Source: Halobacterium sp. DL1 (GTDB lineage Archaea > Halobacteriota > Halobacteria > Halobacteriales > Halobacteriaceae). From it: a stretch of DNA of 64,000 nt. Below the pieces are notes generated by a model that searched no databases, was not told the origin of the DNA, and worked only from the letters and a program-made list of their open reading frames with translations. The stretch is from the NCBI GenBank assembly GCA_000230955.3, contig CP007060.1, positions 434,001 to 498,000 on the forward strand. Reading direction: 5' to 3'. The position numbers and the translations under genes were made by a program. The number at the start of each line of letters is the position of its first letter. Within the stretch, counting starts at the first letter, position 1. This document shows, one piece after another, positions 3,068 to 22,173 of the stretch.

Positions 3068-5221
3068 TCATACATCAAACACCTCGCCAAGGAAAGCATC
3101 AACATCTGTTTCGTCCCGTTCAGGGAGTTCAACGAAATGATCCCGCAGTTCACTTACATCGTAGTTGTCAGCAGAGAACTCTAATGCAGCCTCAGTTTTA
3201 TTGCTGACTTCAACATCAGGGTAATAGTCTTCGATTTCACCATTCAGGAGTAAGATGTTTTCTTCAAGTAGTCGTGCTCTCAGTTCTAAGCGGTCAGAAT
3301 TAATCCTTTCATGATTGCTTGTTATCGCTTTACGCCACGCGTCATCGGATTTTTTATTGATTAATTTCTTGATGCTATCAATGTGCTCTTGATCGGGTTC
3401 TTCCCCGTCTTCCAGTCGCTCTTTTAGTTCTCTGTATCTTTCAAAAGTTCTTTCCCAAGTAGCATTGAGGATTTTACTATCGATATCGCTGCTATTCCAA
3501 GTATGATCTACTTTCCCATCATCTACGAGCGATTCAGAGGTATCTTTCAGTTCCTCAATTTCCTCTTCAATAGATTCCTCTTTGACCATCGCGGAGACAG
3601 ACCACCGAAGAGCACCAATATCTGCGATTACAAACACGTCGATTCCCAGCTGTTCCAGAAAGTCTTTGAATAATGGCAGGTTCGTTTTACCCCCCACCTG
3701 AAGAACTGGGATACCTAAGCTATCGAAATTCCAATTAGGATTAAGAGATGAAGAAACTTCTCTAAGGACAATCGCATCGGATCGGCCCTCTACTAGTACC
3801 ACTCTTTCCGAGAAAATGTAGGAGGATACCTTTTGAAGGTCCATTAGACGGGACTGTTCCCGCGGTTCCTTTTGATTCAAAACTGTATGGAATTGTGTAA
3901 CCTCTGTTCCGTTCTTATCTCGGACAATGTTGATCGTGTCTAGTATTTTATTCTGAATCAGAAGGGGGGAGTGCGTATTGAATATAATTTGCGCATCACC
4001 ATTACAAAGACTTCTGAAGACTCGAAGTAAGTTCTTCTGCAGATTCGGATGCAGAAACAGTTCCGCCTCCTCATAGAGGATCAAGAGGGGTTGCCTCTGT
4101 TCATTTTCTTCACTATCTTCATTAGCTATAGAGAGCGAACCATCTCGAAGATCAGCAATAGTGCGAAGCATACTGAAAACCAGTACCCGCCTCACACCTT
4201 CACCAACATTCTCGTGTGACAAGGTGTCTTCAAGTTGATCATCTTCAATCCGAATATCCACGCCTCGGAATAATCTCCTACTCTCCACTCGTGGGAAATC
4301 CAACTCCACAGAATAATCTCTGAAGGCTTGCTTGAGATAATCACTTATTTGGGTCTCAAAGGCTTCTGAACTGGTGTCTAGTCGATCATATACACTGCCT
4401 AAATTTTCATCAAGTTGTTTGTTGATATCTTCCTCTAATTCACTATATAGGGCATCGGTCATTTCGCCTAGTTCGCCCGAAGTCTGGGCCGCATCTTCAA
4501 CTTCTTTGATAGCAGGTATCTTGACCACGTCAGGAAGCACTACCTCTCTAATCAACTGTTTCGTACCCGAAGGAAAACTCGTAGGCTTCGGTTCAAATTC
4601 AAGACCCTCCGGCCGAGAGGCTATGTAACTCTCATACCCATCCTTCCATGCACCCTTCTGCTTCAGACTGTCTTCGTCGACATGTCCCGCGACTTCTGGA
4701 TATTTTTCCCGCATCGCGTCCCGATAATCAGTGTTGGTGAACCCCTCTTTATCATCGATATTTCCCCACTGATCATCGCGGAAGTCCAGAAAAGTATCTT
4801 CACTCAGTTCCTCATCAATAGGCCTGAGTTGGATTACTTGGAATGATGTATTTCCCCCTTTCTCTTCCGATTCGGTAATACGACAGATTCCAAGATGATT
4901 GTCGAAGTCTTCCCAGTTTAGAAGGAGTTCTCGTACCTGCTCCCGCTTCCTCTCATCCTGTATCCGGTGTAGGTCTTTTTCTAATACATTAAAATACCCT
5001 CTGACCTCTACTGTTCGAGAAGTCTCCTTGTTCCAGTAGAGTTCCTCATCTTTCGTCTTATCCTCTTGCTCAAGCAGGTATTTGATAGATGAAACAATAT
5101 TGGTTTTTCCAACGTTGTTTTTTCCTACGAGACAGTCAAGTCCTTCAAATGTTATTGCGTCATCTCCCCATTGTTCCTTTATCGAACGGTGATTTTTGAC
5201 TTCTATCCTATCAAGATTCAT
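3068..5221 (-). CDS. OLD-family ATP-dependent endonuclease (ABC ATPase + TOPRIM), 717 aa
   Basis: The N-terminal ABC/SMC-type ATPase starts MNLDRIEVKNHRSIKE and has Walker A GKNNVGKT with Lys39. A Walker B region, LILYEEAELFLHPN, and the switch IIFNTHSPLL follow. The C-terminal TOPRIM domain starts at VVLVEGRSDA with the catalytic-type Glu478, followed by an acidic VIADIG stretch. This domain order is that of OLD (overcoming lysogenization defect) nucleases, which cut DNA and often act in phage or plasmid defence. The KTSC gene lies 18 nt upstream on the same strand, so the two form an operon. The gene is clearly more AT-rich than its neighbours, with an unusual number of ATT/AAT/TCT codons, suggesting recent transfer. 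No GajB/UvrD-like helicase partner is adjacent, so it is not an obvious Gabija pair. Confidence 0.88.
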   Translation of the reverse strand: MNLDRIEVKNHRSIKEQWGDDAITFEGLDCLVGKNNVGKTNIVSSIKYLLEQEDKTKDEELYWNKETSRTVEVRGYFNVLEKDLHRIQDERKREQVRELLLNWEDFDNHLGICRITESEEKGGNTSFQVIQLRPIDEELSEDTFLDFRDDQWGNIDDKEGFTNTDYRDAMREKYPEVAGHVDEDSLKQKGAWKDGYESYIASRPEGLEFEPKPTSFPSGTKQLIREVVLPDVVKIPAIKEVEDAAQTSGELGEMTDALYSELEEDINKQLDENLGSVYDRLDTSSEAFETQISDYLKQAFRDYSVELDFPRVESRRLFRGVDIRIEDDQLEDTLSHENVGEGVRRVLVFSMLRTIADLRDGSLSIANEDSEENEQRQPLLILYEEAELFLHPNLQKNLLRVFRSLCNGDAQIIFNTHSPLLIQNKILDTINIVRDKNGTEVTQFHTVLNQKEPREQSRLMDLQKVSSYIFSERVVLVEGRSDAIVLREVSSSLNPNWNFDSLGIPVLQVGGKTNLPLFKDFLEQLGIDVFVIADIGALRWSVSAMVKEESIEEEIEELKDTSESLVDDGKVDHTWNSSDIDSKILNATWERTFERYRELKERLEDGEEPDQEHIDSIKKLINKKSDDAWRKAITSNHERINSDRLELRARLLEENILLLNGEIEDYYPDVEVSNKTEAALEFSADNYDVSELRDHFVELPERDETDVDAFLGEVFDV

Positions 5222-5668: not shown

Positions 5669-6739
5669 ATGACTGAACGTCAAAGAGCCCTCGGTGATTT
5701 CGGTGGTGAAGGTAGAAACAGGAGCAAATCTAGCAGCGACCCCCCGGAGTACAATTACTCGATTGAGGGGCACATCGGCTATTTCTCGTGGTACCGCGGA
5801 ACCCCATCGCTCTCTTTTATAGATTCTGATGCTACACTAAATTGCGACAGCTTAGTCGGTGAGTCACTCCGCGTCACCCTCCATGAGGAACGCGTCTGTG
5901 GTAACTGCGGCGAGAAGCTCTCGAAGCCGAAATACTCGGTATGTTACGACTGTAAACAACGGCCGCCATTTACGCAGTGCATCAAGACGCCGGGTACTGA
6001 CTGTAAGAACGCCGACTGTCCATTCCCCGACTACAAGCGCGATGCGTGCGCCCACACTTACGTCGTTTACCTCGTCACGAAGGCTGATGTGAAGGTTGGC
6101 ATCAGCCGGAGCGACCGTCGTCTCCAGCGGTGGGCCGAGCAGGGCGCGAGTCACGCTATCGTCGTTGCCGAAACGCCGAATCGAAAGTCGGCGGGGCTCA
6201 TCGAGGAGGCGTTCAGTGATCGCTTTGAAACCCAGTCGAGTAGTTCATGGTACGAACCGCGGACGTCTCCTGTTGAGGATCTTGTTGAGGCCACCCGAAC
6301 GGTGCCAGAGTACATTCCAGATGACTCACGGTTACACGCGTGTCTCACCCTCAACGATCTTGATGAGGATGTTGTCGCTGACCGAGTCGTATCAATACCT
6401 CACCGTGCGACCGGCATCGACCACGCGCGTGGTGTAAATCGACCCGAACTGGAGGTCGGCGATAACGGCGAGGGGACGATTTTAGGCGTTCGGGGGAGTG
6501 TCATCCTCACGGACTCCTTTGCACTTAATCTCAAGAAACGCCAAGGTTATCGAACGACCATCGAAACAACGGCCGAGCTTGCCGTCGAAGTGGAGGATAA
6601 ACTCTGTTGTCTGCTACGATTCGTAGGCGGATTGTGGGACGGCGTGGCGCAGAAACTGCAGTCAGAACGACAACTGAAAGATAGCAATGACGGCACACAT
6701 TACTCTGGAGGAGATGGACGTAGCGAACGATCTGGATGA
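5669..6739 (+). CDS. DUF2797 family protein (zinc cluster + GIY-YIG-like), first gene of the Argonaute operon, 356 aa
   Basis: The N-terminal part carries the family's GHIGYFSWYRGTPSL segment (about residues 34-48). A zinc-binding cluster follows (Cys77, Cys80, Cys92, Cys95, then Cys104, Cys112, Cys117, Cys127, His129). A YVVYLV...VKVGISRSDRRLQRWAEQGA region (about 131-160) then resembles the GIY-YIG-type fold in which the family is usually placed, with AGLIEE downstream. The function of DUF2797 is unknown; a nucleic-acid-binding or nuclease role is inferred from the fold. The last 53 nt overlap the next gene (the Argonaute OB domain), so the genes are probably co-transcribed and translationally coupled. 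The start is the ATG at 5669; a weak TATA-like AATCTTAA lies about 40 nt upstream. The C-terminal tail (DSNDGTHYSGGDGRSERSG) lies in the overlap and may not be conserved. Confidence 0.75.
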   Translation: MTERQRALGDFGGEGRNRSKSSSDPPEYNYSIEGHIGYFSWYRGTPSLSFIDSDATLNCDSLVGESLRVTLHEERVCGNCGEKLSKPKYSVCYDCKQRPPFTQCIKTPGTDCKNADCPFPDYKRDACAHTYVVYLVTKADVKVGISRSDRRLQRWAEQGASHAIVVAETPNRKSAGLIEEAFSDRFETQSSSSWYEPRTSPVEDLVEATRTVPEYIPDDSRLHACLTLNDLDEDVVADRVVSIPHRATGIDHARGVNRPELEVGDNGEGTILGVRGSVILTDSFALNLKKRQGYRTTIETTAELAVEVEDKLCCLLRFVGGLWDGVAQKLQSERQLKDSNDGTHYSGGDGRSERSG

Positions 6740-7277
6740 GGGTGCAAAGTACACGACGACCTTCGAGGTCGTTGACGCTCAACACCACCCTAACCGTGGG
6801 CCCGGAAACCGCGTTCTCAAGTACGTAGACGAGACGGGTAGACGGCCAGGCATCACCCTTTGGGTAAACTCAACGCCTGACGAGGTGTACGAGACGGATT
6901 TCGAAGCCGGCGAGACATACACGCTGACAGACCTTCGCTACTCTATCAACGAGTCCAGTGGTCGAACCTTCTACAATCTTACTGCGACGGCCGATACTAA
7001 AGTGACTCAGTCGACGAGAGACGCGGACATAGGTGAGACCACCAGTTCTGCTGATGTAGAATCGTCATCCGGAGACGATGAGACATCGTCGGTTGACGTG
7101 AGGGCGAAGCAGGGGGGGACAGTAGCGAAGCAGAACGGAATAACACCGACTCGACAGGCGAGGAAAAGGAGCCCCGAGCCGTGTCCGCGTCGGTTGATGA
7201 AGAAATGCAGGCAGAAATCGATGATGCGTTCGCCGACGTACCTGAGTCAGCGACCGAGCAGACGGGACACGCGCTGA
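6687..7277 (+). CDS. N-terminal OB-fold domain of the Argonaute, in a separate frame
   Basis: The first about 115 residues match the extra N-terminal single-strand-DNA-binding (OB/RepA-like) domain of the long haloarchaeal Argonaute from Natronobacterium gregoryi. Both share ITLW-x-N-x-TP, then an FEAGETYTLTDLRY-like segment and YNLTATADTKV. An acidic linker follows (about 116-140, GETTSSADVESSSGDD). After the G run at 7112-7118 this frame turns abruptly basic and unlike a halophile protein (TPTRQARKRSPEPCPRR). The next frame continues the acidic linker directly into the Ago body, so residues after about 144 are probably not a real product by normal reading. With a -1 shift at 7118 the OB domain and Ago would form one protein of about 932 residues. 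The start overlaps DUF2797 by 53 nt; an alternative ATG lies at 6714. Confidence 0.75.
   Translation: MTAHITLEEMDVANDLDEGAKYTTTFEVVDAQHHPNRGPGNRVLKYVDETGRRPGITLWVNSTPDEVYETDFEAGETYTLTDLRYSINESSGRTFYNLTATADTKVTQSTRDADIGETTSSADVESSSGDDETSSVDVRAKQGGTVAKQNGITPTRQARKRSPEPCPRRLMKKCRQKSMMRSPTYLSQRPSRRDTR
7112..7118 (+). other. G7 run at the OB/Argonaute frame junction, fits a -1 slippery heptamer
   Basis: Seven consecutive G follow CA. In the OB frame the codons are CAG, GGG (7113-7115), GGG (7116-7118), so the run is phased G-GGG-GGG, the X-XXY-YYZ form. Re-reading one base at 7118 moves translation into the Ago frame as GAC AGT AGC GAA. The Ago frame is open back to a TGA at 7094-7096, so the junction must lie between 7097 and the end of the OB frame. 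The G run is the natural place. It is either programmed frameshifting, a one-base deletion in vivo, or a homopolymer sequencing error. Confidence 0.7.
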
Positions 7278-9484
7278 CGACCTTCCGAAGTGAGAAATCA
7301 CTCTCTGAATTTGCGGTTCACGAGTACACGCTGAAAGCCAAGGACGGGTACCGTCCCGATGATCATCAAGCCGCCCTGCGCGACACGTACAAGGCGAGAC
7401 GAGACATCTTGGGAGAGTTTGAGAGCTCGTCTCCCCCGGTTATCGCCGTTCGAGATGCCCTCGCGCTCGCTACTCCGTCCCCACTCCCTGTTGAAGATTT
7501 AGAGCTGAAGAATTTCGAGATGGTCAACGACGGGCCACACACACTGGACTACACCGATTATAGTGACAAGGCTGTCACAAAGGGGCTCATCGACGCCTCA
7601 CTCCGTCGCATTCTGGATGGTGACTATGAGGTTCGAGGCATCGACACGGTCCTCTCAAAGCGCCCTGTTATCCAGAAACAAGACTTCCGCCTGCACGAAC
7701 GATGGAATCTCTCGCTATCGGTAACGAATGCTGGCGTCGTCTATCTCTCGGTTGACTTCCGGCACAAGACCATCTCTGAGTACACCCTCGACAAATTCGA
7801 TCTCGATAAGCTCTATCGTGGCCTCCGCGTCAACGTAACGTACAAGCAGAGCGGGAAAGGGGCGTTCGTTGACGAGCTAATGGATAAGACGGTCAACGAG
7901 AGTATCGATGATATGGGTAATCAAAGCGTCGTTGAGTACCACGAGGGAGCAGAACGGATCCCCGACCGCGTTCTGAAAGAAATCGCTCGTGCTGACCGGC
8001 GGGTAGTGAAAGTCACCAAGCAGGGTTCGCACAACACCGAGTATTACCCCCAGCGACTCCTCGCCCTACAGGGTCACCCGCAGAACGTGAAGGCGTTTGC
8101 CCCGAGATTTAATGAGGCGACTCGCGGGAAGACGCGGCTATCTGCCCAACGGTGTCTCAATCGGGCGACAACTTTCGTCGAAAATCTTCCGCCGGTCATT
8201 CCGCTAGGAGGGGCGACTCTCTCGTTTGACGCAACACCGGTCAATGGCGATGACACTTGGGAGATGTCGCGGTTGTTTGAGACCGACGCCCACATCCTCC
8301 AGTTCGCCGAGGAGCAAACTGGTGACCATCCGCGACGGGTGAAGCACAATGAAGTGTACGAAGCCCCCGAGGAGTTCTCGGTGTGTCTCGTCCATCCGAG
8401 CGCGGGCCCACACGCTGAGCGGTGGGAAAACCTCGATCAGCAACTCAAGGACATCGGAGCGGGTCCTGAAGCGGTTAATCGGGTGCAGTACGACCCGTTC
8501 AAAACTGCTGATGAGATCTATACCGACCTGCTGGTTGACGTACCCGATGACCACGAGTACTCTGCCGCGTGTGTCATCCTGCCGAAGGCGGATTTCAGCA
8601 TGGGTGAGAGTAGCGCGAGCGACATTTATCACGAGATGAAGAAAGCGCTCCGCCAGAGGCGTGTTGATAGCCAGATGGCCCATATCGACACGCTCGCCAC
8701 CAGCTACGCGCTTCCGAACGTCGCGCTGGGATTGGTCGCTGCCGCGGGCGGCATTCCATTTACAACCGAGGATGCAATGCCAGGCGAGACGGATCTGTTC
8801 ATCGGAATTGACGTATCCCATCGCTACCCGCGAGATACCGACGAACGTGTCCATATCGCCGCCTCAACGACGAGTATCTACGGCGACGGTACTATCCTCG
8901 GGTATACCTCTGCGAAACCCCAGACGGGTGAAAAGGTGCCGCCGAAAGAGCTGAAGAATCTCACGCGCCAATCGATCGCGGGGTACAAGCAGGAACACGG
9001 CGAATATCCAGACCGCATCGTCATCCACCGGGACGGATTCATGCGCGAGGATCTCGATCAGGTAGAGGAGATGTTAGAATCGATGGACATCAACTACGAT
9101 GTTGTCGAGATTCGCAAGCAATCGCCAGCGCGCGTTCTCAACCTCGCAGACGGCGTCGCCAAGATACCCGACAAGGGCATTGCCGCACTCAACCGCGAGG
9201 AAAATAGAGCTATCCTCGCTACATTCGGTGACCCCGAGTCGCAAGCGACGAGCTCAAACACGGGACTTCCTCAGCCTATCCAAGTCGAGCGCAAGGCTGG
9301 CGACACTGACATCAAAACGTTGACTGCGCAAGTCTACCTACTGAGCCAGTCCCACGTCGGTGCGATGAACTCAACTGCTCGTCTACCCATTACTACCTAC
9401 TATGCTGACCGTGCGAGCGAGGCCGCAGCCGAGGGGTACCTTCCGGAAACTTCGAAACTCCGCCAGAACATCGGCTTCATCTGA
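7181..9484 (+). CDS. long prokaryotic Argonaute body (N-PAZ-MID-PIWI), NgAgo-type
   Basis: This is a guide-directed nucleic-acid-binding protein of the long pAgo class, predicted to be catalytically active. The PIWI tetrad is visible: Asp544 in FIGIDVSHRYP, Glu584 in QTGEKVPP, Asp618 in IHRDGFM and Asp743 in TYYADRAS. Other segments close to Natronobacterium gregoryi Ago, as I recall that sequence, include RRVVKVTKQG, KTRLSAQRC, NVALGLVAAAGGIPFTTE, YLLSQSHVGAMNSTARLPIT and the C-terminus QNIGFI. The GTG at 7181 is only a nominal start: the acidic frame is open upstream to 7097 and contains the natural linker to the OB domain. A product starting at 7181 would lack the OB domain. It lies in one operon with DUF2797 and converges on herA, with 64 nt between stops. 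The likely role is DNA-guided DNA interference against plasmids or viruses, or DNA repair/replication; both are inference. Confidence 0.93.
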   Translation: MSASVDEEMQAEIDDAFADVPESATEQTGHALTTFRSEKSLSEFAVHEYTLKAKDGYRPDDHQAALRDTYKARRDILGEFESSSPPVIAVRDALALATPSPLPVEDLELKNFEMVNDGPHTLDYTDYSDKAVTKGLIDASLRRILDGDYEVRGIDTVLSKRPVIQKQDFRLHERWNLSLSVTNAGVVYLSVDFRHKTISEYTLDKFDLDKLYRGLRVNVTYKQSGKGAFVDELMDKTVNESIDDMGNQSVVEYHEGAERIPDRVLKEIARADRRVVKVTKQGSHNTEYYPQRLLALQGHPQNVKAFAPRFNEATRGKTRLSAQRCLNRATTFVENLPPVIPLGGATLSFDATPVNGDDTWEMSRLFETDAHILQFAEEQTGDHPRRVKHNEVYEAPEEFSVCLVHPSAGPHAERWENLDQQLKDIGAGPEAVNRVQYDPFKTADEIYTDLLVDVPDDHEYSAACVILPKADFSMGESSASDIYHEMKKALRQRRVDSQMAHIDTLATSYALPNVALGLVAAAGGIPFTTEDAMPGETDLFIGIDVSHRYPRDTDERVHIAASTTSIYGDGTILGYTSAKPQTGEKVPPKELKNLTRQSIAGYKQEHGEYPDRIVIHRDGFMREDLDQVEEMLESMDINYDVVEIRKQSPARVLNLADGVAKIPDKGIAALNREENRAILATFGDPESQATSSNTGLPQPIQVERKAGDTDIKTLTAQVYLLSQSHVGAMNSTARLPITTYYADRASEAAAEGYLPETSKLRQNIGFI

Positions 9485-9548
9485 CGAAGCACGGAGTTCT
9501 TTCCCAGAGATGGATAATCGATGTTCTGTTGTTATGATGATTTGAGAC

Positions 9549-11423
9549 TCAGTTGCTGTGATGAGTGAGACAGGCGGGAAGGCCCTTGATTTCGACTGCC
9601 CGTACGTCGGGCTGTTTGACAACCATCTGGCCCTTGTTGAATTGAGTGACGGCCTCTTTGAACTCCTTCGGGACGAACACGTCATGGCTTTCGACCACGT
9701 CGCGTTCGAGACCGAGGTAGATGCGGGTATTCATTTGCTTTCGAACGTCCTCATCAATGTCTTGGGGCGTCTGGGTGATGATGTAGAGCCCGAACTTGTC
9801 CTTTCGCCCTCGTTTCGCGGCTTGTCTGAACTTCCGGACGAGGTAGCCAGAGCGTGATCCGAGGTCGGATGGTGTGGTGAGGTACTCGTGTGCTTCGTCC
9901 AGCGAGAGGAGCATCGGCGTTCCTTTGATATGTGGGAACTCCACATCGCTGCCGATTTTATTCGTGACGACATGGGCAAGCAAACAAGATACCACTAAGC
10001 GGTCGGTCGATCCACGGAGATGATCAGTCGGTATGATGGTGACCTTCCCCGGAGAAAACATCTCGCTGGTGAGGTCGAACAACGACTGGTCGCCGTTGTC
10101 GAAAACTCGGTTAAACTCGTACTGCCCCACGAGGCGTTCGCGGGCGGCTGTCTTGACGCTCCCGTTCTCAGTGATGCGGTCCTCGTCCTCGTCCAGCATG
10201 TTATCTGCGAAGTTCGAGAACTCCCCGTAGGTATAGGGCGCGTTGTGGTTGTGGAAGTACTCCGTAATGAGATCGTTGATGGCATCTTTCGTGCGGTCTG
10301 GGGGCGAGGATTTGTAGAGGAGTTGGCGATTCCTTCGGACGAGTTCGAACGGGATACTGAACTCCGTACAGTTCGGGTGAGAGGGGTGGGTGTCGTTGAT
10401 GTTCGGGACGTACACACCGAAGTCGACGTTGCTGTCGGGGCTGTCAAGTCCCCCGTGAAGGATATTCTGTTCCTCCAGCATCTCTTGGAACTCGTCCTCA
10501 TAGTAGTCTGCTTGAGTCTCGGGGTCTGGGTCATCCCCCATTTCGACGTACTCGCCCTCGGGGTCGATTACTGTGACGTTCAGAGCCCGTTGTCGATCCT
10601 CAACCACATCGACATTTTCCCCATCCTGCTCCTCTGGCGGCACTTCGATTGAATACTCTTTGCCTGTCGAGAGGTTGCGGAGGATGTTTTTCGACCCGTG
10701 GGTCTTCCCCTGCCCAGTAGACCCCGCGACCTGTGTGTGTCGGAAGATGGCGGGCTCGCCCTCGTCCTCGTTCCCGTCAGTGGCATTCGGGTTGAACATA
10801 TAATACGGAAGCGGTTCCTCCTCGGTGGGGATCCGGTCCCCGCTTACTGCCATATGTCCAAGGAAAACACCGCGGTCAGGGAGGCGGAGAGCTGACCGGA
10901 GGAAGGCCCGGTCCTCGACCAGACACGTGTTCGCCCCCGGCTTTGGTGGTTTGTCGACCGTCGCCTGTGTGAACTGATTCTCCGTGTCCGTCTCATCGAA
11001 CTCAACGATGCTGATAGGTTCGATTTGGGCAACGTAGGAGAAGGAATGTTCACCCGGCGGGTTTGCGTAGCCGCCGTCCTGCTTATCATTGATGTCGGCA
11101 ATGGTGGCATATTCGAGGCGTTTGATCACTCCGACGAGCATCGCGCGAGAATACTCTTCGTCTTCAAGCGGCGCATAGGGTATTCGAAGATAGTTCCCGA
11201 GACGCACGCCCTCGCGGGAGTCGGAGTCAACGAACGCACGGATGACCGACTCCTCGCGGTCAACGACGATGGGGTTGTCTTGCGCTGTGATATGACCAAC
11301 GCGCTCGCCATTGTGGTCACCGAAGGGAGCGGGTGCGTCTTTGAGTTGAGTCTCGTCGGTTGCTTCTTCGCTAGCCCTCTCGTCCTCTGCTCGCGCATCG
11401 TCCAAACTGAAATCCTCTGTCAT
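9549..11423 (-). CDS. herA: HerA-family hexameric DNA translocase/ATPase, 624 aa
   Basis: HerA is a FtsK-like bipolar DNA translocase that works with the NurA nuclease and Mre11-Rad50 in resecting DNA ends. Here Walker A is AGSTGQGKTHG with Lys240, and Walker B is LLSLDEAHEY with Asp509/Glu510. An arginine-rich segment, FRQAAKRGRKDKFG, and an ITQTP sensor follow. The first 150 residues include a HAS-barrel-like region with RLGNYLRIPY. An insertion of acidic, low-complexity sequence (EEQDGENVDVVED) after the P-loop is typical of halophile versions. The gene is last in a minus-strand series mre11-rad50-nurA-herA, 75 nt after nurA, and its stop faces the Argonaute stop. It starts MTEDFSLDDARA at the ATG at 11423. 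HerA-type ATPases also pair with nucleases in antiphage systems, so a defence role is plausible. Confidence 0.9.
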   Translation of the reverse strand: MTEDFSLDDARAEDERASEEATDETQLKDAPAPFGDHNGERVGHITAQDNPIVVDREESVIRAFVDSDSREGVRLGNYLRIPYAPLEDEEYSRAMLVGVIKRLEYATIADINDKQDGGYANPPGEHSFSYVAQIEPISIVEFDETDTENQFTQATVDKPPKPGANTCLVEDRAFLRSALRLPDRGVFLGHMAVSGDRIPTEEEPLPYYMFNPNATDGNEDEGEPAIFRHTQVAGSTGQGKTHGSKNILRNLSTGKEYSIEVPPEEQDGENVDVVEDRQRALNVTVIDPEGEYVEMGDDPDPETQADYYEDEFQEMLEEQNILHGGLDSPDSNVDFGVYVPNINDTHPSHPNCTEFSIPFELVRRNRQLLYKSSPPDRTKDAINDLITEYFHNHNAPYTYGEFSNFADNMLDEDEDRITENGSVKTAARERLVGQYEFNRVFDNGDQSLFDLTSEMFSPGKVTIIPTDHLRGSTDRLVVSCLLAHVVTNKIGSDVEFPHIKGTPMLLSLDEAHEYLTTPSDLGSRSGYLVRKFRQAAKRGRKDKFGLYIITQTPQDIDEDVRKQMNTRIYLGLERDVVESHDVFVPKEFKEAVTQFNKGQMVVKQPDVRAVEIKGLPACLTHHSN

Positions 11424-11498
11424 TTATTAGTTGTTAAGCGGATTAGAGACTATATCACATGAAGGTTCGCGTCTTGCCAACTGAGCCATGTCACTATT

Positions 11499-12824
11499 CT
11501 AAAACTCTTCAAATCGGTCATACTCGCGCCCTTCATTATAGTCTTGAACAGCGCGAACATTCCCGTGATTGTTCTGGGCGAACTGCTCAATAACATCTCG
11601 AAGGTTAAAGCGGTCGTCTCTAGAGATGCGGGCACGTTGGTCGGCGAATGTGATTGCACGAGGTTCCTTCTGTTGTTGGGCGATTTCAACGAGGGCCTTC
11701 CGGGTGATACGCTCTCGAAGTCGTGCATTCCGGGCGAAGGCGTGTGGAGTCTCCACACGCATCACGTAGTCGGATTGGGGGCAGCGGACGTAGAAGAACG
11801 CTCGGATATACTCGTTGGCATCGCCCCACTTCAGTGAAACGCCGTCGTAGAATTCGAACGGTACAACGGACTCACCGTGCGCTCCCTCCTTCTGTTGGAG
11901 GAGCCACGGCGTGTAGCTGATGATGGGGCCCTTATCACCGTAGCGGTCGTCAGAGTTGTACAAGGCGTCCTCGAATAGTAGATGGTCGCTCCCCCACGGA
12001 AGTGGTGTCTCGATATTCACGTCGTTGTCTTCAATCTTCGTCTGGAGTGAATCTAGGGCAGCACTGGAACGACCAGTCTTGATGATGCCGATGGGCGGGT
12101 AGTTTCGGTCGTACATCATCTCGATTGTGGAGACGTAGTTCTGCATGATGTCTCCTACTATCTCGGGCCAGTTGTCGGTCATATACGTCGGCCCCTCCCC
12201 CGCCTGCTCAAACAGCATCCAACTGAACGCTGGGTTCGGGTAGAGGGGTCCGTCAATGAACAAAGGGCCGTCAAGTTCGGCAGCGTACTTGCGAGCATGT
12301 TTTCCCTCGGCATACGTCCGAGAGACGCCAACAAGATAGTCGTCAAGACGGCTAATGAGGTCGCTGGCAGGGAATCGGAGCATTTCGGCGTCGGTACCAC
12401 TAGGGAGTTCAATACCCGTCTCTCCGACACCAGGTAACTCAAACTCGTCGTCGTTGTGGTGGGCGACAAGTGTCGCCGTAGTTCGGTTAGCGAGGTCGGC
12501 GTTGCCTGTCTTACCCGAGACACCGAGTTTCGCGGCGCTCCCTGCGGCGAGAAGACCGTTGTTAAACTGTAGTGCCCGTGTGGTGGAACCATCCAGTCCG
12601 TACGTGGTCGGCCACGGATCGTCCCACGACTTTACTTCGCTAATCGGCTTGTGGGTGATCTGGAATTCGTCATCGTCGAGTAGGTTCACATTCCCACCCG
12701 GCTGCTGGAAGTGAGCGATAGCGTCTGCAGCTGTCACGGTCTGTTGGGCGTCGAAGTCGCCAACTGCACGGCCCAACTCCTGAAACATCTGATTTAACGC
12801 TCCGTAAGTGTCCATGTCGGTCAA
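11499..12824 (-). CDS. nurA: NurA-domain 5'-3' nuclease, 441 aa
   Basis: NurA is the nuclease partner of HerA. The NurA signature is visible: a beta strand with the first catalytic Asp in TYGLDGSTTRA (Asp78) and a second metal-binding Asp in LFIDGPLYPN (Asp191). C-terminal segments follow, including GIIKTGRSS, and a late His in MRVETPHAFARN. Length is within the family range. The gene sits between rad50 (122 nt upstream) and herA (75 nt downstream) on the minus strand. This is the order known for thermophilic archaeal end-resection operons, but it is unusual to see it complete in a haloarchaeon next to Argonaute. It starts MTDMDTYGALNQ at the ATG at 12824. Confidence 0.88.
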   Translation of the reverse strand: MTDMDTYGALNQMFQELGRAVGDFDAQQTVTAADAIAHFQQPGGNVNLLDDDEFQITHKPISEVKSWDDPWPTTYGLDGSTTRALQFNNGLLAAGSAAKLGVSGKTGNADLANRTTATLVAHHNDDEFELPGVGETGIELPSGTDAEMLRFPASDLISRLDDYLVGVSRTYAEGKHARKYAAELDGPLFIDGPLYPNPAFSWMLFEQAGEGPTYMTDNWPEIVGDIMQNYVSTIEMMYDRNYPPIGIIKTGRSSAALDSLQTKIEDNDVNIETPLPWGSDHLLFEDALYNSDDRYGDKGPIISYTPWLLQQKEGAHGESVVPFEFYDGVSLKWGDANEYIRAFFYVRCPQSDYVMRVETPHAFARNARLRERITRKALVEIAQQQKEPRAITFADQRARISRDDRFNLRDVIEQFAQNNHGNVRAVQDYNEGREYDRFEEF

Positions 12825-12946
12825 GCATGACCACCCGCATAGAAGTGCTTGATAAGGATATCAGCCATCGTATCTGTTGTATAGTTAGAGATAGGGTCAA
12901 ATAAGGGTTCACCGCTCAGGGCGACGCGGTCTGAGTGGAGTGGCGC

Positions 12947-15727
12947 TCAGTCGTCGGTGGCCGTGTCGCCCACGGTGGCTTCAGTCTCGGTGTCATTCGT
13001 TGCTTCCTCGACCGCCGCATGGCCGGAACGGACGCGGCTGGTCTCGGTCTGAGGATCCTTTTCGACGAGGATTGCGTGATCGCTGTTCTCGATGAGGGTT
13101 TCGTCGTGGCTGACGAGCAGAATTTGTGGGACATTCCACTCGCCGATGGTCTGTATCATCGTCTGTAACTCGCCGACGTGCCCCGAGTCAAGGAATGTCG
13201 TCGGCTCGTCGAGGATGAATGGCGGGAGCGCCGCACCGGCGACGCCGTCGCGTTCGGTGATAATTTTGTAGACGCCCGCCCGAAGTGCGAGGTTCAGTAT
13301 GCCGGACTCTCCACCACTAGACAGTTGCGGCTTAAGTTTCTCACCGTCCTGTGCGATGAGGTAGATGTTGTACTTTTTGTCGATGTGGACGCCGCGATAG
13401 GACTGATCCCTGTAGAGGTCCGAAAACACCTCGTTAGTGTACTCGTTCAGCTTGTAGATATTCTGCTGTCGGAGCTTGCCACGAACCTCCTTATACTTCT
13501 TGATGACCTCTGTCGCCTCGTCAATGCGTTCATTAGCCCACTCGCGCTGACTGGCGAGCATTTTCTTGCGCTTGGTCTCTTCCTGTATCTGCTCCTTCTT
13601 CGAGTTAAGAGAAGCGAGTTTATTGACAAGCTCCTCCTCTTCGGACTCTTTTCCATCCAAGGTCTCGCGGAATTCGTCAAGGTAATCGTCAATCTCGTTG
13701 ATATCGTCTCTGATGGACTCGGCGTCAAGATCACCAAGTTCCGCCTCAAGCTCCTCCACGTCTTCTTTCAGGTCGGACATTCGGTCGTACGCCGTCCGTC
13801 GAAGCTCGCCGATGCGCTCGCGGTTCTCCTTATGGCGGTCGATATCGGATTCCAGTTCGGAGATACGTCCGTGTAGTTCGACTGCTTCTGAGAGCAGTTC
13901 TTCGACGGTCTCCACTCTGTTGACTCGGACTTCAGCGTCTTCGAGATCCTCGTTCGCGTCGTCGATTTCGTCGTTGAGTCGCTCCTTCTTTGAACGGTAC
14001 TCTTCGAGTTCACCACGGAGTCCCTCCAGCGTCGACTCCACCTCATCAACGCGCGCTTCAGCATCTTCAATATCGGAGTCGGCCTGTTCAACCTCTCCGC
14101 GGGCATCTTCGAGGTCGTTCCGGGTAGATTTCGCGTCGCGGACTGCTTCACGAAGATCATCAAGCGTCTCTTGTGCTTCGTCGAGTTCCGCGAGACGCTC
14201 CTCTGCAGCTTCGAGGTTGGCCTTGTGCTCTGCAGCAACCGCCTCCGAGTCGATGTCATGAGCGTCGTCTGTCGCACCACAAACCGGGCATTCACCCTCG
14301 GATTCGAGATTGTCGACCTGCTCTTGTAGAGTTCCGAGGTGGCTCTTTTTTTCGACGATTTGCTCTCGTTCGGACGAAATAGTTTGCCTTGTCTCGGGGA
14401 TGTGTGACTCATCAATGTCGTCTACCGACGCATCTTGGGGGATATCGAGTTCCACCGCAAGATCAGCGACCGTCGTTCGGTCATTTTCGAGGGCATTTTC
14501 GAATCTCTCGACACGCTTCTCGGCATCGGACTTGCGCGACTCAGCGGACTCAACCTCAGCACGGACGTCGTCGAGTTCACTCTCTTTTGACTCGATTTCG
14601 TCTACTGTTTCTTCGATGTCGGATTCGACTCGGTCAAGGTCCGACTGAAGGGAGTTGAGTCGCCCTTCCTCGATTGATTGACGTTCTGAGCGAGCCATTT
14701 CGGCTTCTTTTTGCGCCGTTAGGTGCGCCTGCTCGGCGGTGTCAGCATCCAGTACGTCGTAGTCAGCGAGTTCATCCCGCTCGGCTAAGGCTTCAAGATC
14801 CTCCTGTGCCTCGTCACGCGCATCTTCAGCTTTGCGCTGTGCTTCCTTTTCCTCTTGGAGTTCTTCCTTGTACGTCTCGTGGTCGCTTTCGGCGTCCTCG
14901 TACTTGTCACGGGTCTCATCGAGTTCCACTTGGAGGTCGTCGATGCGGTCAAGGGTCTCCGTCTTCGTCTCACGCTCGTCCTCAAGACCATCAATTTTCG
15001 ATTCGAGATCGTCGATGTCGCCTTTGATGTCCGAGATCTTCTTGTCAGTCTTGTTTATTTGGGATTGGATCTCATCCTCCGCAGGCAGATCTTGAAGTCG
15101 CTTCTTGGTTTCGTCAAGGCGACTGTTCGAATCACGCTTTGCCTTCTTGTACTCACGGCGAGCGTCTTCCATGCGGTCGACGTACTCATCGAGACGGTTC
15201 AGACCAAGGAGGCCGTCAAGAATCTTCCGACGGTCTTCAGTGCTGGCATGGATGAGGCGCGTGATGTCGCCTTGCTGGACGTAGACGCTGTTGACGAACG
15301 ACTCTGCGTCCATCCCGACAACGCGCTGAATTTCGGTCTGCACGTCGCCAAGGCTGGACACGTCTTCGGAGAGGGCGTCCGAGGAGAGTTTCGGGTAGCC
15401 TTGCTTGGTCTTGGCCCCGTTAACCTCGTCGTCGTCGTCGTAGCTTTTCTGGATGACCCACTCAACGGTGTACTCGGCTCCGCCTGCCTCGAAGACAAGT
15501 TCGATACGCCCTTCGTCAGCCTGCGTGCGAACAAGGTCTGGTAAATCAAAGTCATTGCCGACCTGGTACTTCATTTTCGTCTGGAACAGCCCACCGAACA
15601 CCCCTTGCAGGATGGTGGACTTCCCCGCGCCGTTCAGCCCGAAGAGGAGATTTTCGCCGTCCTCGAAGTCGATATGACCGTTCTCGTAGCTGCGGATATT
15701 CTCTAAAATGAGGGTCTTGAATTTCAT
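12947..15727 (-). CDS. rad50: Rad50-type SMC ATPase with zinc hook, 926 aa
   Basis: This ABC-type ATPase of DNA double-strand-break processing forms a complex with Mre11. It has Walker A GLNGAGKST (residues 30-38) and long heptad-rich coiled coils on either side of a zinc hook CPVC (residues 480-483). The C-lobe has the signature SSGGESGILNLALR, Walker B FILDEPTTFLD and an SHDE switch. Length is normal for archaeal Rad50. It begins 27 nt after the mre11 stop, so the two are one operon. The C-terminal tail is acidic and Thr-rich. It is likely an additional copy, because the haloarchaeal chromosomal mre11-rad50 pair normally lies outside accessory DNA; that needs the rest of the genome to confirm. 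Confidence 0.93.
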   Translation of the reverse strand: MKFKTLILENIRSYENGHIDFEDGENLLFGLNGAGKSTILQGVFGGLFQTKMKYQVGNDFDLPDLVRTQADEGRIELVFEAGGAEYTVEWVIQKSYDDDDEVNGAKTKQGYPKLSSDALSEDVSSLGDVQTEIQRVVGMDAESFVNSVYVQQGDITRLIHASTEDRRKILDGLLGLNRLDEYVDRMEDARREYKKAKRDSNSRLDETKKRLQDLPAEDEIQSQINKTDKKISDIKGDIDDLESKIDGLEDERETKTETLDRIDDLQVELDETRDKYEDAESDHETYKEELQEEKEAQRKAEDARDEAQEDLEALAERDELADYDVLDADTAEQAHLTAQKEAEMARSERQSIEEGRLNSLQSDLDRVESDIEETVDEIESKESELDDVRAEVESAESRKSDAEKRVERFENALENDRTTVADLAVELDIPQDASVDDIDESHIPETRQTISSEREQIVEKKSHLGTLQEQVDNLESEGECPVCGATDDAHDIDSEAVAAEHKANLEAAEERLAELDEAQETLDDLREAVRDAKSTRNDLEDARGEVEQADSDIEDAEARVDEVESTLEGLRGELEEYRSKKERLNDEIDDANEDLEDAEVRVNRVETVEELLSEAVELHGRISELESDIDRHKENRERIGELRRTAYDRMSDLKEDVEELEAELGDLDAESIRDDINEIDDYLDEFRETLDGKESEEEELVNKLASLNSKKEQIQEETKRKKMLASQREWANERIDEATEVIKKYKEVRGKLRQQNIYKLNEYTNEVFSDLYRDQSYRGVHIDKKYNIYLIAQDGEKLKPQLSSGGESGILNLALRAGVYKIITERDGVAGAALPPFILDEPTTFLDSGHVGELQTMIQTIGEWNVPQILLVSHDETLIENSDHAILVEKDPQTETSRVRSGHAAVEEATNDTETEATVGDTATDD

Positions 15728-15754
15728 TGTCGTGTCTGTGATATCTACTATCGA

Positions 15755-16969
15755 TTATCGTTCTTCGAGGGTCGCCTCACCGAACTGTTCTTTCTGCTCA
15801 GTGCGGATGTGTGTGTTCATCTCTGGACGGATGTCATCGTCATCAACGGTGTCGTCTCGTACGAGGTCATCTGCTTCGGTCGTGATGGTGGATATCTCAA
15901 GCCCTCCGACCGCATCATCTAACATCTTGTCGGGGTTCTGAGACTCCGTCTGCTCATCGTCAAAATCGAAGTCAAAGTCCACATCGGGTTGGCGTTTGTC
16001 ATCAACATAGGGAACCGCCACTTCGCGTTCAGCCATCAAATCGTACACGTCCTTCGCAGTAACGCCCACGTTCGCGCCTGTCAGGCGGGCGACGACGACC
16101 ATGTCTGAAATGTCGTCGTTCATTCCGCCGGCATCCTCGTCAATGCGGGTCGCTGCGTGGTCAAGGCTGTGCGTCTCATCGAAATCGATGTTTACTGTGA
16201 GGAACGGACGGGGCACGTTCTCGCGCCCGGCTGTGGAGATAGCTCGTGTTTTACGGCTGAGTTCCCCATCCTGGATATTCAACAGGTAGACGCTGGGTGT
16301 GCCTCGCTCAGACACCTTGCATCGTTCGGTCGCCCCAGGGTAGAACACTTTGACACCGTCGACAGTGTCATTACACGTCGAGTGGTAGTCGCCAAGGGCA
16401 AGAGCGGTCGGCAGGAAGTTCAGTCGATCAAGGATATCCTCGGAAAGGTCGTACGGGTCGCCGCGGTGTTCGGGGACAAGCGGCTGAACCAACTCGTGCA
16501 TACAGAGAATAGTGACATGGTCGTTGGACTCAGATTCGCCGAGCGTGAAGTCGTATCCGTCCCACTCAGGTGAGCGTATAGCATCAATTCCGTACACTGA
16601 TACAGGATCGTCCCCGTTGGCGTCTGTCACTACAGTCGGCGATTTCGAGAGCCGTTTCGCATTACCGAACCGCTTGATGATATCCATCCACTGTTCCTCT
16701 CGCTTCCGCTCATGATTTCCCACGATAGCGAGGAAAGGAATACCAGCGTCTTCCAGCCGACCGATGGTATCGAGGCAACGATTGACTGCGGGAACGCTCG
16801 GCGTTGGATCGTCAAACAGGTCGCCAGTATGAATGACTGCATCCACGCCCTCGTCAATAGCGATGTCGACCGAGGCGTCGAAAGCGTCTGCGAAGTCGGC
16901 ACGGCGGAGGTCCTGTCCGTACTGACGCTTGTCGAGATGAGTATCACTTACGTGGAGTATTTGTGTCAC
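15755..16969 (-). CDS. mre11: Mre11-type DNA double-strand-break nuclease, 404 aa
   Basis: This is a Mn-dependent calcineurin-like phosphoesterase that trims DNA ends with Rad50. All core metal motifs are present: SDTHLD (Asp9, His11), HTGDLFDD, VGNHERK, a CMHELV histidine and LGDYHST. A capping domain and an acidic C-terminal tail (DFDFDFDDE) follow. The start codon is GTG at 16969 (MTQILHVSD), immediately before the first beta strand. It is the first gene of the mre11-rad50-nurA-herA series; a TATA-like element at 17009-17016 would give a short leader. Confidence 0.92.
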   Translation of the reverse strand: MTQILHVSDTHLDKRQYGQDLRRADFADAFDASVDIAIDEGVDAVIHTGDLFDDPTPSVPAVNRCLDTIGRLEDAGIPFLAIVGNHERKREEQWMDIIKRFGNAKRLSKSPTVVTDANGDDPVSVYGIDAIRSPEWDGYDFTLGESESNDHVTILCMHELVQPLVPEHRGDPYDLSEDILDRLNFLPTALALGDYHSTCNDTVDGVKVFYPGATERCKVSERGTPSVYLLNIQDGELSRKTRAISTAGRENVPRPFLTVNIDFDETHSLDHAATRIDEDAGGMNDDISDMVVVARLTGANVGVTAKDVYDLMAEREVAVPYVDDKRQPDVDFDFDFDDEQTESQNPDKMLDDAVGGLEISTITTEADDLVRDDTVDDDDIRPEMNTHIRTEQKEQFGEATLEER

Positions 16970-17343: not shown

Positions 17344-19617
17344 TTAGTCCCCGAACAGTCGAGAAAAGAATCCGCCGGAGTTGTCCGTATCCGATACGTT
17401 TTCTGTGCTTGCTGACTGCACGGTATCCGTGCCGGTTTCGGCCGCTCCGTTCAGGAGCTCGTTGACGGAGTATCCGATCCACTCGGCGAATTCCTCGGGT
17501 GCACCGATGTAGACGCTTGTGGATGATTTTTCGGACATGAATCGTTTGGGGAGGCGCTTCTCGTAGTCGTAGACCTCGTACTCGTCGCGGTCGAAGTCGG
17601 CGGTGATTGCATTCGGCTCAGATTCGAACGTGACACGGCCGCCTTGGATATCCCGCTGCCACTTCAACCGTCCTGTGTCGTACGTCTTCTCGGCTGGTTC
17701 GTCAGCGGGGAAGTACTCGGGTTGCTTTCGATCGGCTTCGTCGTAGAACTCGCGGACAATACGGCGGACGTCTTCGATAGTCCCGTTCCCGTCGGTCCAT
17801 GGTTGTTCGGTGAGCATTCGGCGGGCTACGTAACTGAAGATCGGGTTTTGTCGTTCCAGAACCTCTGAGAGGTCTTTTTGTGCTTCGCGGAAGCCCGGGT
17901 CTTCCGGGTTGGAGGGGAAGGAGACGTCCATGCTCAGGATTTTCATTCGGTTCCGGAACTCGGATTTCGGGAGCGCGTCGTTGGTCGTGAAGATGAGGCA
18001 CGGCTGATCGACGCTGGTGGGTGTCCAGTCGCCCCAGTAGTTTCGGATCGGGCTCCACCGCTGGATCTTCTCTTTTTCGGCGTCGATGATGGCGTACGGG
18101 AAGCACGTGTCCCATTCGCGGACGCCGCGGACCTCTTTGACGCCGACGTCGTCTGCGTCCACACCGGAGATGACCGTGTTGTCGGAGACGAGTCGCAGGA
18201 TGTACTCGGTGAGCTTGTCTTTCCCCGCGTCGCTCTTCCCTTCGATGTAGAGGTGCTGCAGGACGTTGTCTAGCGTCCGTGACGGTGATGATAATGCCTC
18301 GGCGTACTGGTTGGCGAACGGTGCCCAGAACCCGTAGAGGAATGCCTCGTACATCTGCGCCATCACTGCGATCTCGGATTGCGTGTGGCCGTGGTTCTGG
18401 ACGGTCTCGATGTAGTCTTCGATAGTTTCGAGGCAGTGATCCAGAACTTCAGGGGTCGGCTCGTTGGTGGCGACGAGAATCATCTCGTCGTCCTCACCGA
18501 TCACGACCTGCTCGGCTTCCGGAAGGACGGACATCGTTGGGATGGCTGTTGATTCCTTGACCTGGTTGTTGTACGCGCTCAGCGGCGCGGTGATGCTGTG
18601 ATCCTCGACGGTCGCGCCGCGGTCACGGAGCCCGGCCCCAAACTCGTCGGCGGTGTCTTTGTCCACCTTGCTGGTTCCCATCCGTATCTTCTCGTCGGGT
18701 GCACGGACCCGCGGACGATCTAGCCCGTCCGTCAGCCCCGTTTCGTGATCCGACTCGACGAGCCCGACGTCCGGTGACTCGTCGTCGTTCGCAGCGTCGG
18801 TGGAGTTTTCCTCGTCCGCGGGCTCATCCGGCTCAATGACGTTGCGATCGGCGTTCTCAGGTTCTTCGACGAACGCAACCGTCTCGTCGGCCCCCTCCGG
18901 GTCGTCGACAACGGCAGTGACCTGATCGGCGACGTCTTTCAGGTCCTCAACGGCGTCCTGATTCAGAGCAGCAGTATCGCTCACGTCGAGATCGCCGGCA
19001 CCAACCCAGTACTCGATGCGGTTCTCCCGTTCTTCCGGTGAATCGGCATCCTCCAGTGCCTCGACAAGCCCTTCGAGGAGCGTCTGGTCGCTGTACCCGT
19101 CGCGGTACTCGTCGATGAACCGCTCGAACTCCTCGTCCAGTTCGGTCCCGACATCGGTCGTAATGACGGAGATCTGGTTCGTGTGGTACTCCCAAGAGTT
19201 CCGTGAGAGGTTCGCTGACCCTTGGACGAGCTTCACCGTGTCGTCCGGCATCACGATCCGGTAAATCTTCGAGTGGACGGTCTTCCGGTTCTTCAATCGA
19301 ATCGTGAGTCGATCGTCTTGTCGCAGTCGGACGAGCGACCTCGCCGTCGAGACTTCGTTCACCTGGTCGGCGTAGTCTTCGGCGTTCCCGATGAGCACGT
19401 CGAGTGAGCCAATGTCGTACTCGGTCAGCATCTTCACCATCAGGTCGGGCGTCTCCGCGTACGTCACGGCATCCACGTGACGAGCGCCTGCGAACAGATC
19501 AAGAAAGTCACTCCGCTCTTTCACCATCGCCAGGCGGTATTCCGCCGCACCGGATCCGTAGAATTCCGGCATATCCGCAAACCTGTCAAACGAGATATTC
19601 GCCGTCAGTTCGTCCAT
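17344..19617 (-). CDS. phospholipase D-like nuclease / P-loop ATPase fusion, 757 aa
   Basis: The N-terminal domain (about 1-160) has one HxK motif of the PLD/NucA nuclease superfamily, VHSKIYR with His115 and Lys117. A matching GSANLSRNSWEYHTNQ segment follows (Asn136). The middle (about 200-330) is acidic, Asp/Glu-rich and probably disordered. The C-terminal half has a Walker A EGKSDAGKDKL (Lys466) and the acidic strand YAIIDAEKE. A LIFTTNDALPKSEFRNRMKIL sensor-like region follows, similar to SF3-type helicase or primase-linked ATPases. A single HxK means it would dimerise to form an active site. It lies upstream of mre11 on the same strand but 374 nt away, so co-transcription is uncertain. 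The start is the ATG at 19615-19617. Association with DNA defence or element replication is inferred. Confidence 0.75.
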   Translation of the reverse strand: MDELTANISFDRFADMPEFYGSGAAEYRLAMVKERSDFLDLFAGARHVDAVTYAETPDLMVKMLTEYDIGSLDVLIGNAEDYADQVNEVSTARSLVRLRQDDRLTIRLKNRKTVHSKIYRIVMPDDTVKLVQGSANLSRNSWEYHTNQISVITTDVGTELDEEFERFIDEYRDGYSDQTLLEGLVEALEDADSPEERENRIEYWVGAGDLDVSDTAALNQDAVEDLKDVADQVTAVVDDPEGADETVAFVEEPENADRNVIEPDEPADEENSTDAANDDESPDVGLVESDHETGLTDGLDRPRVRAPDEKIRMGTSKVDKDTADEFGAGLRDRGATVEDHSITAPLSAYNNQVKESTAIPTMSVLPEAEQVVIGEDDEMILVATNEPTPEVLDHCLETIEDYIETVQNHGHTQSEIAVMAQMYEAFLYGFWAPFANQYAEALSSPSRTLDNVLQHLYIEGKSDAGKDKLTEYILRLVSDNTVISGVDADDVGVKEVRGVREWDTCFPYAIIDAEKEKIQRWSPIRNYWGDWTPTSVDQPCLIFTTNDALPKSEFRNRMKILSMDVSFPSNPEDPGFREAQKDLSEVLERQNPIFSYVARRMLTEQPWTDGNGTIEDVRRIVREFYDEADRKQPEYFPADEPAEKTYDTGRLKWQRDIQGGRVTFESEPNAITADFDRDEYEVYDYEKRLPKRFMSEKSSTSVYIGAPEEFAEWIGYSVNELLNGAAETGTDTVQSASTENVSDTDNSGGFFSRLFGD

Positions 19618-19843
19618 ACACACGGCAGCAGTCTGAAACGAATAAAACCGTGCCGTGGAGTGATAGTGGAGCATTCGTCATCGTAACTTCGACGCCGACG
19701 CACGCCTCATCGGGCTGGAAGCCGGCCAGTGATTGAGGAATGGCGCGAAGCTTCCGATGGACGGCAGCGTAAGCCGACGCGATCTGAAGGGGCTGATTTC
19801 GGTGAGGGTGATTCGACAGGGGTGCAGGACCTGAACTGATCGT

Positions 19844-21246: not shown

Positions 21247-22173
21247 TCACATCCTTTCGTCGATATCCGTCGTTGCCAGTGCTTGCGCGAGGAGTTCGAG
21301 ATCCTCCCGATAGTCAATGGTGGTGAGCCACCGTTCTGGAAGCGAGTCGCTCCCGAAGCGTGCGCTGGCGAGCGCGCCCGTGACGGCTCCGATAGTGTCT
21401 GTGTCGCCGCCGCGGTTGACTGCGGTCACGATGGCATCCTCCGCACTGTCGGCTGTCAGCGCGTCGTACAACGCCGTCTGTAGCGTGTGGACGACGTAGC
21501 CGCTGTTCGGTAACTGGCTCTCATCGACGTGGTCCGGCACGAGTCGGAGCGTCTCGACGAGTTCGTCCGGTGCGTCACGTTCGAGGCGGTCGAGTGCGCC
21601 TGTAAGCGGGTCGTCGTCGCCCTGGAGGTACCCGGCGATTGTGCAATTCAGCACGGCGCACCCGTAGGTGCATCGCGGATCGTGGTGCGTGATCGCCGAG
21701 GACTGTCGGCTTACCTGCGCGAGCGTGTCGGGGTCGTCGGCGAAGGCAATCGCGTGCGGGGCACACCGCATCACGCTGCCGTTGCCGGCGTTCGATCCTT
21801 CGGCGCGGTGTTGCCAGACCTCGCGCCCGGCGTCCCGCCAGGACGTTCCATTCGCGTACTCGCGGATGGCATCGGCGGTCATCAGCCCGATGTCGAACGG
21901 ATCGCTCTCGTACCATTCGTGGAATCGGTCGGCGATATCAGTCCCGTTGAAGCCTCCTTGCTCGACGAGGCTCCGTGCGATACACAGCGCGAGGTCAGTG
22001 TCGTCAGTTACCGTTCCCGCGGGTTGGCCGTGCGTGCCATGGCCGAGCATCTCCGTCACGGTTCCATGCTGGTCAGCAATCGACTCGCCAGAGCGAAACT
22101 CCACGGGGCGACCCAAGGCATCGCCGCAAGCGAGCCCCAAGACAACGCCTGTGGCAGCGTCCGGTGTAACCAT
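21247..22173 (-). CDS. ADP-ribosylglycohydrolase family protein, 308 aa
   Basis: The enzyme is of the DraG/ARH type, which removes ADP-ribose from modified macromolecules using two Mg ions. The metal motifs are present: TVTDDTDLAL (residues 54-63) near the N-terminus and NRGGDTDTIGAVTGAL near the C-terminus. The family's GLACGDALGRPVEF and GNGSVMRCAP segments are also seen. Length is standard. It starts MVTPDAATGVVLG at the ATG at 22173. It is an isolated minus-strand gene in the accessory region. No ADP-ribosyltransferase or Sir2 partner is adjacent, so a role as immunity protein or in nucleotide salvage is speculative. Confidence 0.88.
   Translation of the reverse strand: MVTPDAATGVVLGLACGDALGRPVEFRSGESIADQHGTVTEMLGHGTHGQPAGTVTDDTDLALCIARSLVEQGGFNGTDIADRFHEWYESDPFDIGLMTADAIREYANGTSWRDAGREVWQHRAEGSNAGNGSVMRCAPHAIAFADDPDTLAQVSRQSSAITHHDPRCTYGCAVLNCTIAGYLQGDDDPLTGALDRLERDAPDELVETLRLVPDHVDESQLPNSGYVVHTLQTALYDALTADSAEDAIVTAVNRGGDTDTIGAVTGALASARFGSDSLPERWLTTIDYREDLELLAQALATTDIDERM

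Follow-up and report, generated by a model that had tools for sequence, protein, structure and literature searches.

The window analyzed here, a stretch of 64,000 nucleotides of Halobacterium sp. DL1 (contig CP007060.1; genome G000, 3.16 Mb in two contigs, 99.8% complete), carries a gene for a long-A Argonaute (Ago) of the NgAgo-type clade, preceded by genes for a DUF2797 protein and an OB-fold protein, that faces an accessory mre11-rad50-nurA-herA set (MRNH) and an AgaP-like PLD nuclease gene. Ago and MRNH are paired recurrently among Halobacteria and sometimes in one apparent operon and, therefore, these proteins probably take part in the joint destruction of invading DNA. The broader reading, that the Ago with DUF2797 and OB, MRNH and the PLD nuclease may together form a mobile, modular anti-invader system, has in our judgment about an even chance of being correct. 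Among the open-access literature searched, we found no published account of an Ago-MRNH pairing.

Gene content of the locus

The features of the locus, with positions in the window, are the following:

5669-6739, plus strand: DUF2797 protein of 356 aa (PF10977, 1.4e-28) with conserved Cys/His residues
6687-7277, plus strand: OB-fold (RepA/SSB-like) open reading frame (ORF), 49-51% identical to the N-terminus of the 912-950 aa OB-Ago fusions of L067/L068
7112-7118, plus strand: tract of seven G (G7) at which the reading frames of OB and Ago diverge (frameshift); the DNA is 100% identical in G064, a genome of another haloarchaeal family
7181-9484, plus strand: long-A Ago of the NgAgo clade, 767 codons (PF02171; PADLOC pAgo PDLC02391)
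9485-9548, no strand: gap of 64 nt between the convergent stops (Ago stop 9484, HerA stop 9549)
9549-11423, minus strand: HerA-family translocase, accessory copy (PF01935, 2e-9; PF05872), Walker A and DEAH intact
11499-12824, minus strand: NurA nuclease, accessory copy (PF09376, 2.2e-7), with D78, E173, D191 and D280 conserved among 45 homologues
12947-15727, minus strand: Rad50, accessory copy; Walker A and Walker B, the signature and a CPVC zinc hook are recognizable in the sequence
15755-16969, minus strand: Mre11, accessory copy (PF00149)
17344-19620, minus strand: AgaP-like PLD nuclease with a C-terminal P-loop-like half; PLD fold, HxK and GSxN invariant

Pfam, PADLOC and reading of the sequence thus bear out the gene set and coordinates of a preliminary description of this DNA, in which DUF2797-Ago on the plus strand faces herA-nurA-rad50-mre11 on the minus strand with stops 64 nt apart; the OB ORF between DUF2797 and Ago is an addition to its gene list. 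The same description predicted an active long prokaryotic Argonaute (pAgo), and the protein conforms to this prediction: it matches positions 1-742 of the 742 of the PADLOC pAgo model, aligns with CbAgo over the length of the latter, has the full-length N-PAZ-MID-PIWI chain, and keeps the catalytic DEDD tetrad (D544, E584, D618 and D743 in an alignment with CbAgo, CpAgo and 12 relatives). CbAgo (6qzk) and CpAgo are also the nearest solved structures. DUF2797 lies immediately 5' of the NgAgo-clade Ago in all 15 loci of this clade (clade I, 15 genomes; the other Ago clade, clade II, comprises 36 genomes) and has some resemblance to the motif of GIY-YIG-like nucleases, with a weak match to MUG113 (E=0.17); as Pfam, PDB-sequence and Foldseek comparisons lent this identity no significant support, it is at most a lead.

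The four MRNH families are adjacent and co-directional in the window, as in archaeal sets. In Mre11, the metal ligand H206 is replaced by Asp, as in most sets with a window-type NurA (type 1), most haloarchaeal homologues and the core Mre11 of the same genome, and we therefore rejected this substitution as a sign of inactivity. For the PLD gene, a start at 19620 is probable over one at 19674. In structure comparison, the predicted model, which is of low confidence outside the nuclease domain, appears to adopt the PLD fold and to match the NgoAVII R protein. Full-length alignments give 29-31% identity to nine Ago-adjacent PLD proteins and 79% to one, and the PLD genes of other genomes show linkage both with Ago and with accessory MRNH sets. 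Recoding of the in-frame TAG reported in many PLD homologues was considered and rejected; in the two copies whose retrieved sequence includes a stop it falls at residue 13-14, 5' of the conserved MDEL start. Separately, homologues of the PLD gene in 41 Halobacteria genomes have 75-97% identity, a conservation exceeding that of the set partners, which suggests its recent rapid spread.

The window MRNH is a diverged second copy. The core genes of G000 lie elsewhere in the genome (mre11 at C1:1019796, rad50 at 1021004, nurA at 2411543 and herA at 2416363), and core and window proteins share 29-35% identity. Against the haloarchaeal NCBIfam models for Mre11 and Rad50 (NF041030, NF041035), window Mre11 scores 225 and core Mre11 623 at a cut-off of 550, and window Rad50 430 bits and core Rad50 1297 at the Rad50_Halo cut-off of 1000; the core NurA domain matches PF09376 at 2.8e-17. 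Core nurA (L155:8953-10626) and a herA homologue (L155:14310-16106) are a few genes apart (G000:C1 ~2.411-2.418 Mb). The preliminary description had asked for a chromosomal copy and would have regarded the neighborhood as coincidental if this MRNH were the sole core copy in many Ago-less genomes; with the core copy located elsewhere, the window set is an extra one.

Linkage and partner exchange across Halobacteria

Recurrence was analyzed in 391 Halobacteria genomes, 51 of which have a full-length or near-full-length Ago; a search of genome contigs returned 41 loci with an alignment as query and none with a single Ago protein. Type-1 accessory NurA is present in about 44 genomes. A 421-aa gene near several Agos turned out to encode a very different NurA (PF09376, 3e-24), which defines type-2 sets with the order mre11-rad50-nurA-222aa-herA; these are found in 40 genomes, and an accessory set of either type in about 80 of the 391. 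The protein between nurA and herA of type-2 sets is a conserved 222-aa protein without known family (e.g. L084:2633-3301).

When linkage is defined as Ago and accessory NurA at most 15 kb apart, with closely related genomes counted separately, Ago and a NurA of either type are linked in 14 of the 22 genomes carrying both. For the control defense gene PglZ the corresponding counts are 1/20 with Ago, 1/10 with type-1 NurA and 0/12 with type-2 NurA. Under a genome-position null model the Ago-NurA linkage has p < 1e-6 even if accessory DNA makes up only 5% of the genome, a value in which close relatives count separately. The search for the same gene set that had been proposed for haloarchaeal genomes was thus positive. 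It also extends to the PLD family: of the 24 genomes that have Ago and an AgaP-like gene of lower identity, 23 carry the two at most 15 kb apart, and a window-like PLD is equally close to type-2 NurA in 12 of 16 genomes. The proposed correlation between Ago and a second set held in part. An accessory set is present in 13/15 clade-I genomes versus 58/340 Ago-less genomes (p=2e-8 before correction for relatedness); the former count is inflated by clustered relatives, and each of five sub-clades has at least one set-carrying genome. In clade II, however, sets are not in excess (9/36, p=0.25).

The Ago tree requires six or more changes of linkage, and the NurA tree five or more. The NgAgo-type clade is linked to four set lineages, i.e. 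that of the window, that of L067-L069, that of L077 and type 2 (L070-L073), and the L067-L069 lineage is in L107 also linked to a clade-II Ago; therefore, sets and Argonautes have been exchanged. The NurA proteins closest to that of the window belong to the Ago-less sets of G043 (64%) and G190 (57%).

In several lineages the genes form co-directional runs: (i) mre11(-4)rad50(+2)nurA(-1)herA(+23)PLD followed by Ago in L107, (ii) mre11-rad50-nurA-herA-PLD-DUF2797-OBAgo in L068, (iii) mre11-rad50-nurA-herA-DUF2797-OBAgo-277aa in L067/L184 (Halorubrum sp. Hd13) and L069/L185 (Halopenitus persicus), and (iv) Ago-PLD-mre11-rad50-nurA-222aa-herA in L089. Genes within the sets overlap or are separated by a few nt, and the gaps to PLD, DUF2797 or Ago are up to about 220 nt. 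From this gene spacing, these MRNH-Ago runs look like operons. The 277-aa protein (L067:8047-8880, L069:7815-8648) has no Pfam match, and its gene overlaps the Ago stop by 4 nt.

A different neighborhood is found in L070-L073 (G094, G373, G223, G150), L186, L187, L191 and L192, in which an RNase_H_2/HHH nuclease and a DEAD/MZB helicase (MrfB/MrfA-like) lie within ~10 nt 3' of an NgAgo-clade Ago that has DUF2797 and proteins of 239 aa and 376 aa on its 5' side. By their gene arrangement, the MrfB/MrfA-like genes appear as another repeated Ago partner set.

Several observations weigh against an anti-invader system made up of these parts. Ago is absent from 58 of the 80 genomes with an accessory set and, therefore, the set has an Ago-independent function and can act alone; clade II lacks the excess described above; in the window, the Ago half and the MRNH half are convergent and not co-transcribed; and comparisons with Pfam, PDB sequences and Foldseek gave no significant match from which an activity could be assigned to DUF2797. 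The many sets without Ago and the convergent arrangement would equally be expected if MRNH with PLD on the one hand and Ago on the other were two independent defense modules that do no joint work and became neighbors because both inserted repeatedly at shared hotspots. The OLD-like nuclease also present in the window would fit that scheme, as would the MrfAB-like helicase and nuclease genes, which also flank Agos, so that these neighborhoods collect DNA-processing genes. On the other hand, PglZ, a comparable mobile defense gene, hardly ever lies as close as 15 kb to Ago or to the set, several lineages have co-directional runs in which genes overlap or nearly touch, and exchange of partners is seen repeatedly for two set types that are unrelated. 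We therefore consider co-location of independent modules somewhat unlikely. The combined system put forward in the preliminary description accordingly gains support from repeated independent linkage, reciprocal partner exchange and the co-directional runs, but it is weakened by the occurrence of the set mostly without Ago and incomplete in that it left out a third partner, PLD.

The condition of Ago itself also counts against the anti-invader reading. In most OB-bearing relatives the OB domain is in frame with Ago (the NgAgo architecture, 869-950 aa). In the window, the N-terminal OB/RepA domain and Ago are encoded in different frames and, because of this, the full activity of the window's own copy of the system is uncertain; in the linker past the G7 tract, the Ago frame continues to encode an acidic protein of haloarchaeal type. 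In G064, which shares the G7 frameshift, Ago is in addition cut by an insertion sequence (IS) at about residue 711, 5' of the last catalytic Asp, with MRNH there intact; the Ago of G060 is likewise frameshifted. Alternatively, then, MRNH and PLD could be the working unit, a free-standing DNA-degrading or repair system kept by the element while Ago decays. The 767 codons of the Ago frame, however, contain no other disruption, and every catalytic residue is kept. A putative Shine-Dalgarno sequence (GGAG) 5' of GTG 7181 makes separate synthesis of a 767-aa Ago from this start possible, and divergence from L184, with a pN/pS (ratio of nonsynonymous to synonymous change) of 0.38, shows past constraint on Ago. 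In total, a decaying Ago beside a working MRNH-PLD unit seems improbable to us.

The integrative element

The preliminary description placed the locus in accessory DNA, and this DNA can now be delimited as an integrated element of ~77.5 kb (window -52340 to ~25139). Its right end in the window is

25127-25139, no strand: attachment core AATGCCGCCTCCC, 13 bases, overlapping the 3' end of tRNA-Phe (25129-25202)

and its left end, at G000:C1:381660, has the same AATGCCGCCTCCC core and adjoins a tyrosine integrase (PF00589, L163:7273-8778). Over the element, identity to G064 DNA is 99.7-100%, except for IS-linked rearrangements and ~15 kb (window about -11.3 to 3.9 kb) that are unmatched in the part of G064 compared. 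In G064 the two element ends are joined, which implies a circular form. An integrase beside the attachment site, a core equal to the 3' end of a tRNA gene and joined ends elsewhere are together the marks of a tRNA-gene integrative element.

These properties could be taken to mean that the set serves the element, by end processing or recombination in the replication, integration or maintenance of its ~77.5 kb, with Ago aiding resolution of the replicon or excluding competitors; the role of TtAgo in chromosome decatenation, cited in PMC7776575, would lend this idea a precedent. Accessory sets and Agos are not confined to one element type, however, but occur on plasmids and chromosomes and on many contigs that are unrelated, the carrier elements other than this one having been left uncompared, and we regard a service to the element as very improbable. 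A viral origin of the locus was rejected, as IMG/VR contigs contain no Ago relatives and the phage records searched no NurA relatives.

Divergent from the Ago operon lies a gene for an OLD-like AAA+TOPRIM nuclease (3068-5221, minus strand; PF13175, PF20469; PADLOC Old 1.6e-62), which is probably a neighboring defense gene outside the system proposed here. In G064 an IS inserted at window position 3927 truncates it, and a weak OLD homologue (23%) lies between Ago and MRNH in L077. The same element also encodes an ADP-ribosylglycohydrolase (21247-22173; PF03747, 6e-80).

Relation to known systems and proposed function

The L074 Ago has an N-terminal sequence that agrees with that of the N. gregoryi Argonaute, and presumably is that protein. 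It has 887 aa, and positions 663 and 738, which have been mutated in NgAgo (PMC9040764), are Asp; because of these two residues we equate L074 with NgAgo, which has been assayed for protection against T7 (PMC9040764). Window Ago and NgAgo belong to the same clade, are 42-44% identical and share DUF2797 directly 5', an OB/RepA domain and the DEDD tetrad. Unlike in the window, OB is fused in frame in NgAgo and no set is directly adjacent; the start of a type-2 set is about 21 kb from this Ago, and a window-like PLD is about 30 kb away.

According to PMC11442185, the haloarchaeal APAP system, a long-A pAgo with the AgaP PLD nuclease, gives immunity to plasmids and viruses. The window likewise has a haloarchaeal long-A pAgo with DEDX and a full-length homologue of the AgaP family (~30% identity). 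In contrast to APAP, in which AgaP is adjacent, co-directional and 31-64 bp from ago, the window PLD is 7.9 kb off and on the opposite strand; HxK and GSxN are ~50 aa apart in AgaP but close together in the window protein (H116, K118 and G134, S135, N137); and the window Ago belongs to the NgAgo/DUF2797 clade, with mre11-rad50-nurA-herA added, which that paper does not mention. Nor do the passages searched of PMC11442185, PMC10164581 and PMC12977600 describe an Ago with a Mre11-Rad50-NurA-HerA set. The mre11-rad50-herA-nurA repair cluster of thermophilic archaea (PMC7776575; PMC12977600) has the same four families in co-directional order with catalytic residues kept; the window set differs from it in being accessory and mobile, beside a split core set, below the NCBIfam equivalog cut-offs, and linked to Ago and PLD.

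Combining the linkage data with these comparisons, we suggest for the anti-invader system proposed above that (i) guide-loaded Ago would nick or cut invader DNA, (ii) Mre11-Rad50 would clear or open the ends, (iii) HerA-NurA would run in and degrade both strands, and (iv) short degradation products may load Ago as further guides. RecBCD is not known from archaea. The system would thus parallel, on the archaeal side, the pairing of CbAgo and RecBCD: both would place a long-A, DNA-targeting pAgo beside an ATP-driven, end-degrading nuclease, and they differ in that RecBCD is a housekeeping complex of the host and the window set a dedicated mobile one. In a more far-reaching version, MRNH with PLD is a dedicated mobile archaeal RecBCD analogue that destroys Ago-cut DNA and makes the guides of NgAgo-type proteins, forming a self-contained pathway of guided degradation that is traded between Argonautes; this we consider unlikely. 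For the individual activities, it is reported that CbAgo acts with RecBCD in E. coli (PMC10164581), and that HerA-NurA degrades both strands of double-stranded DNA, for which an antiviral role has been proposed (PMC12977600).

The question to which these observations speak, above all in archaea, is where long-A Argonautes obtain their guides and by which route a cut leads to the loss of invader DNA. The recurrent pairing of Ago and MRNH in the NgAgo clade offers a testable answer to both parts of it. The pairing could also explain why NgAgo activity is weak or disputed outside its native context, and it gives a use to accessory HerA-NurA sets, whose antiviral role has so far been proposed from biochemistry only.

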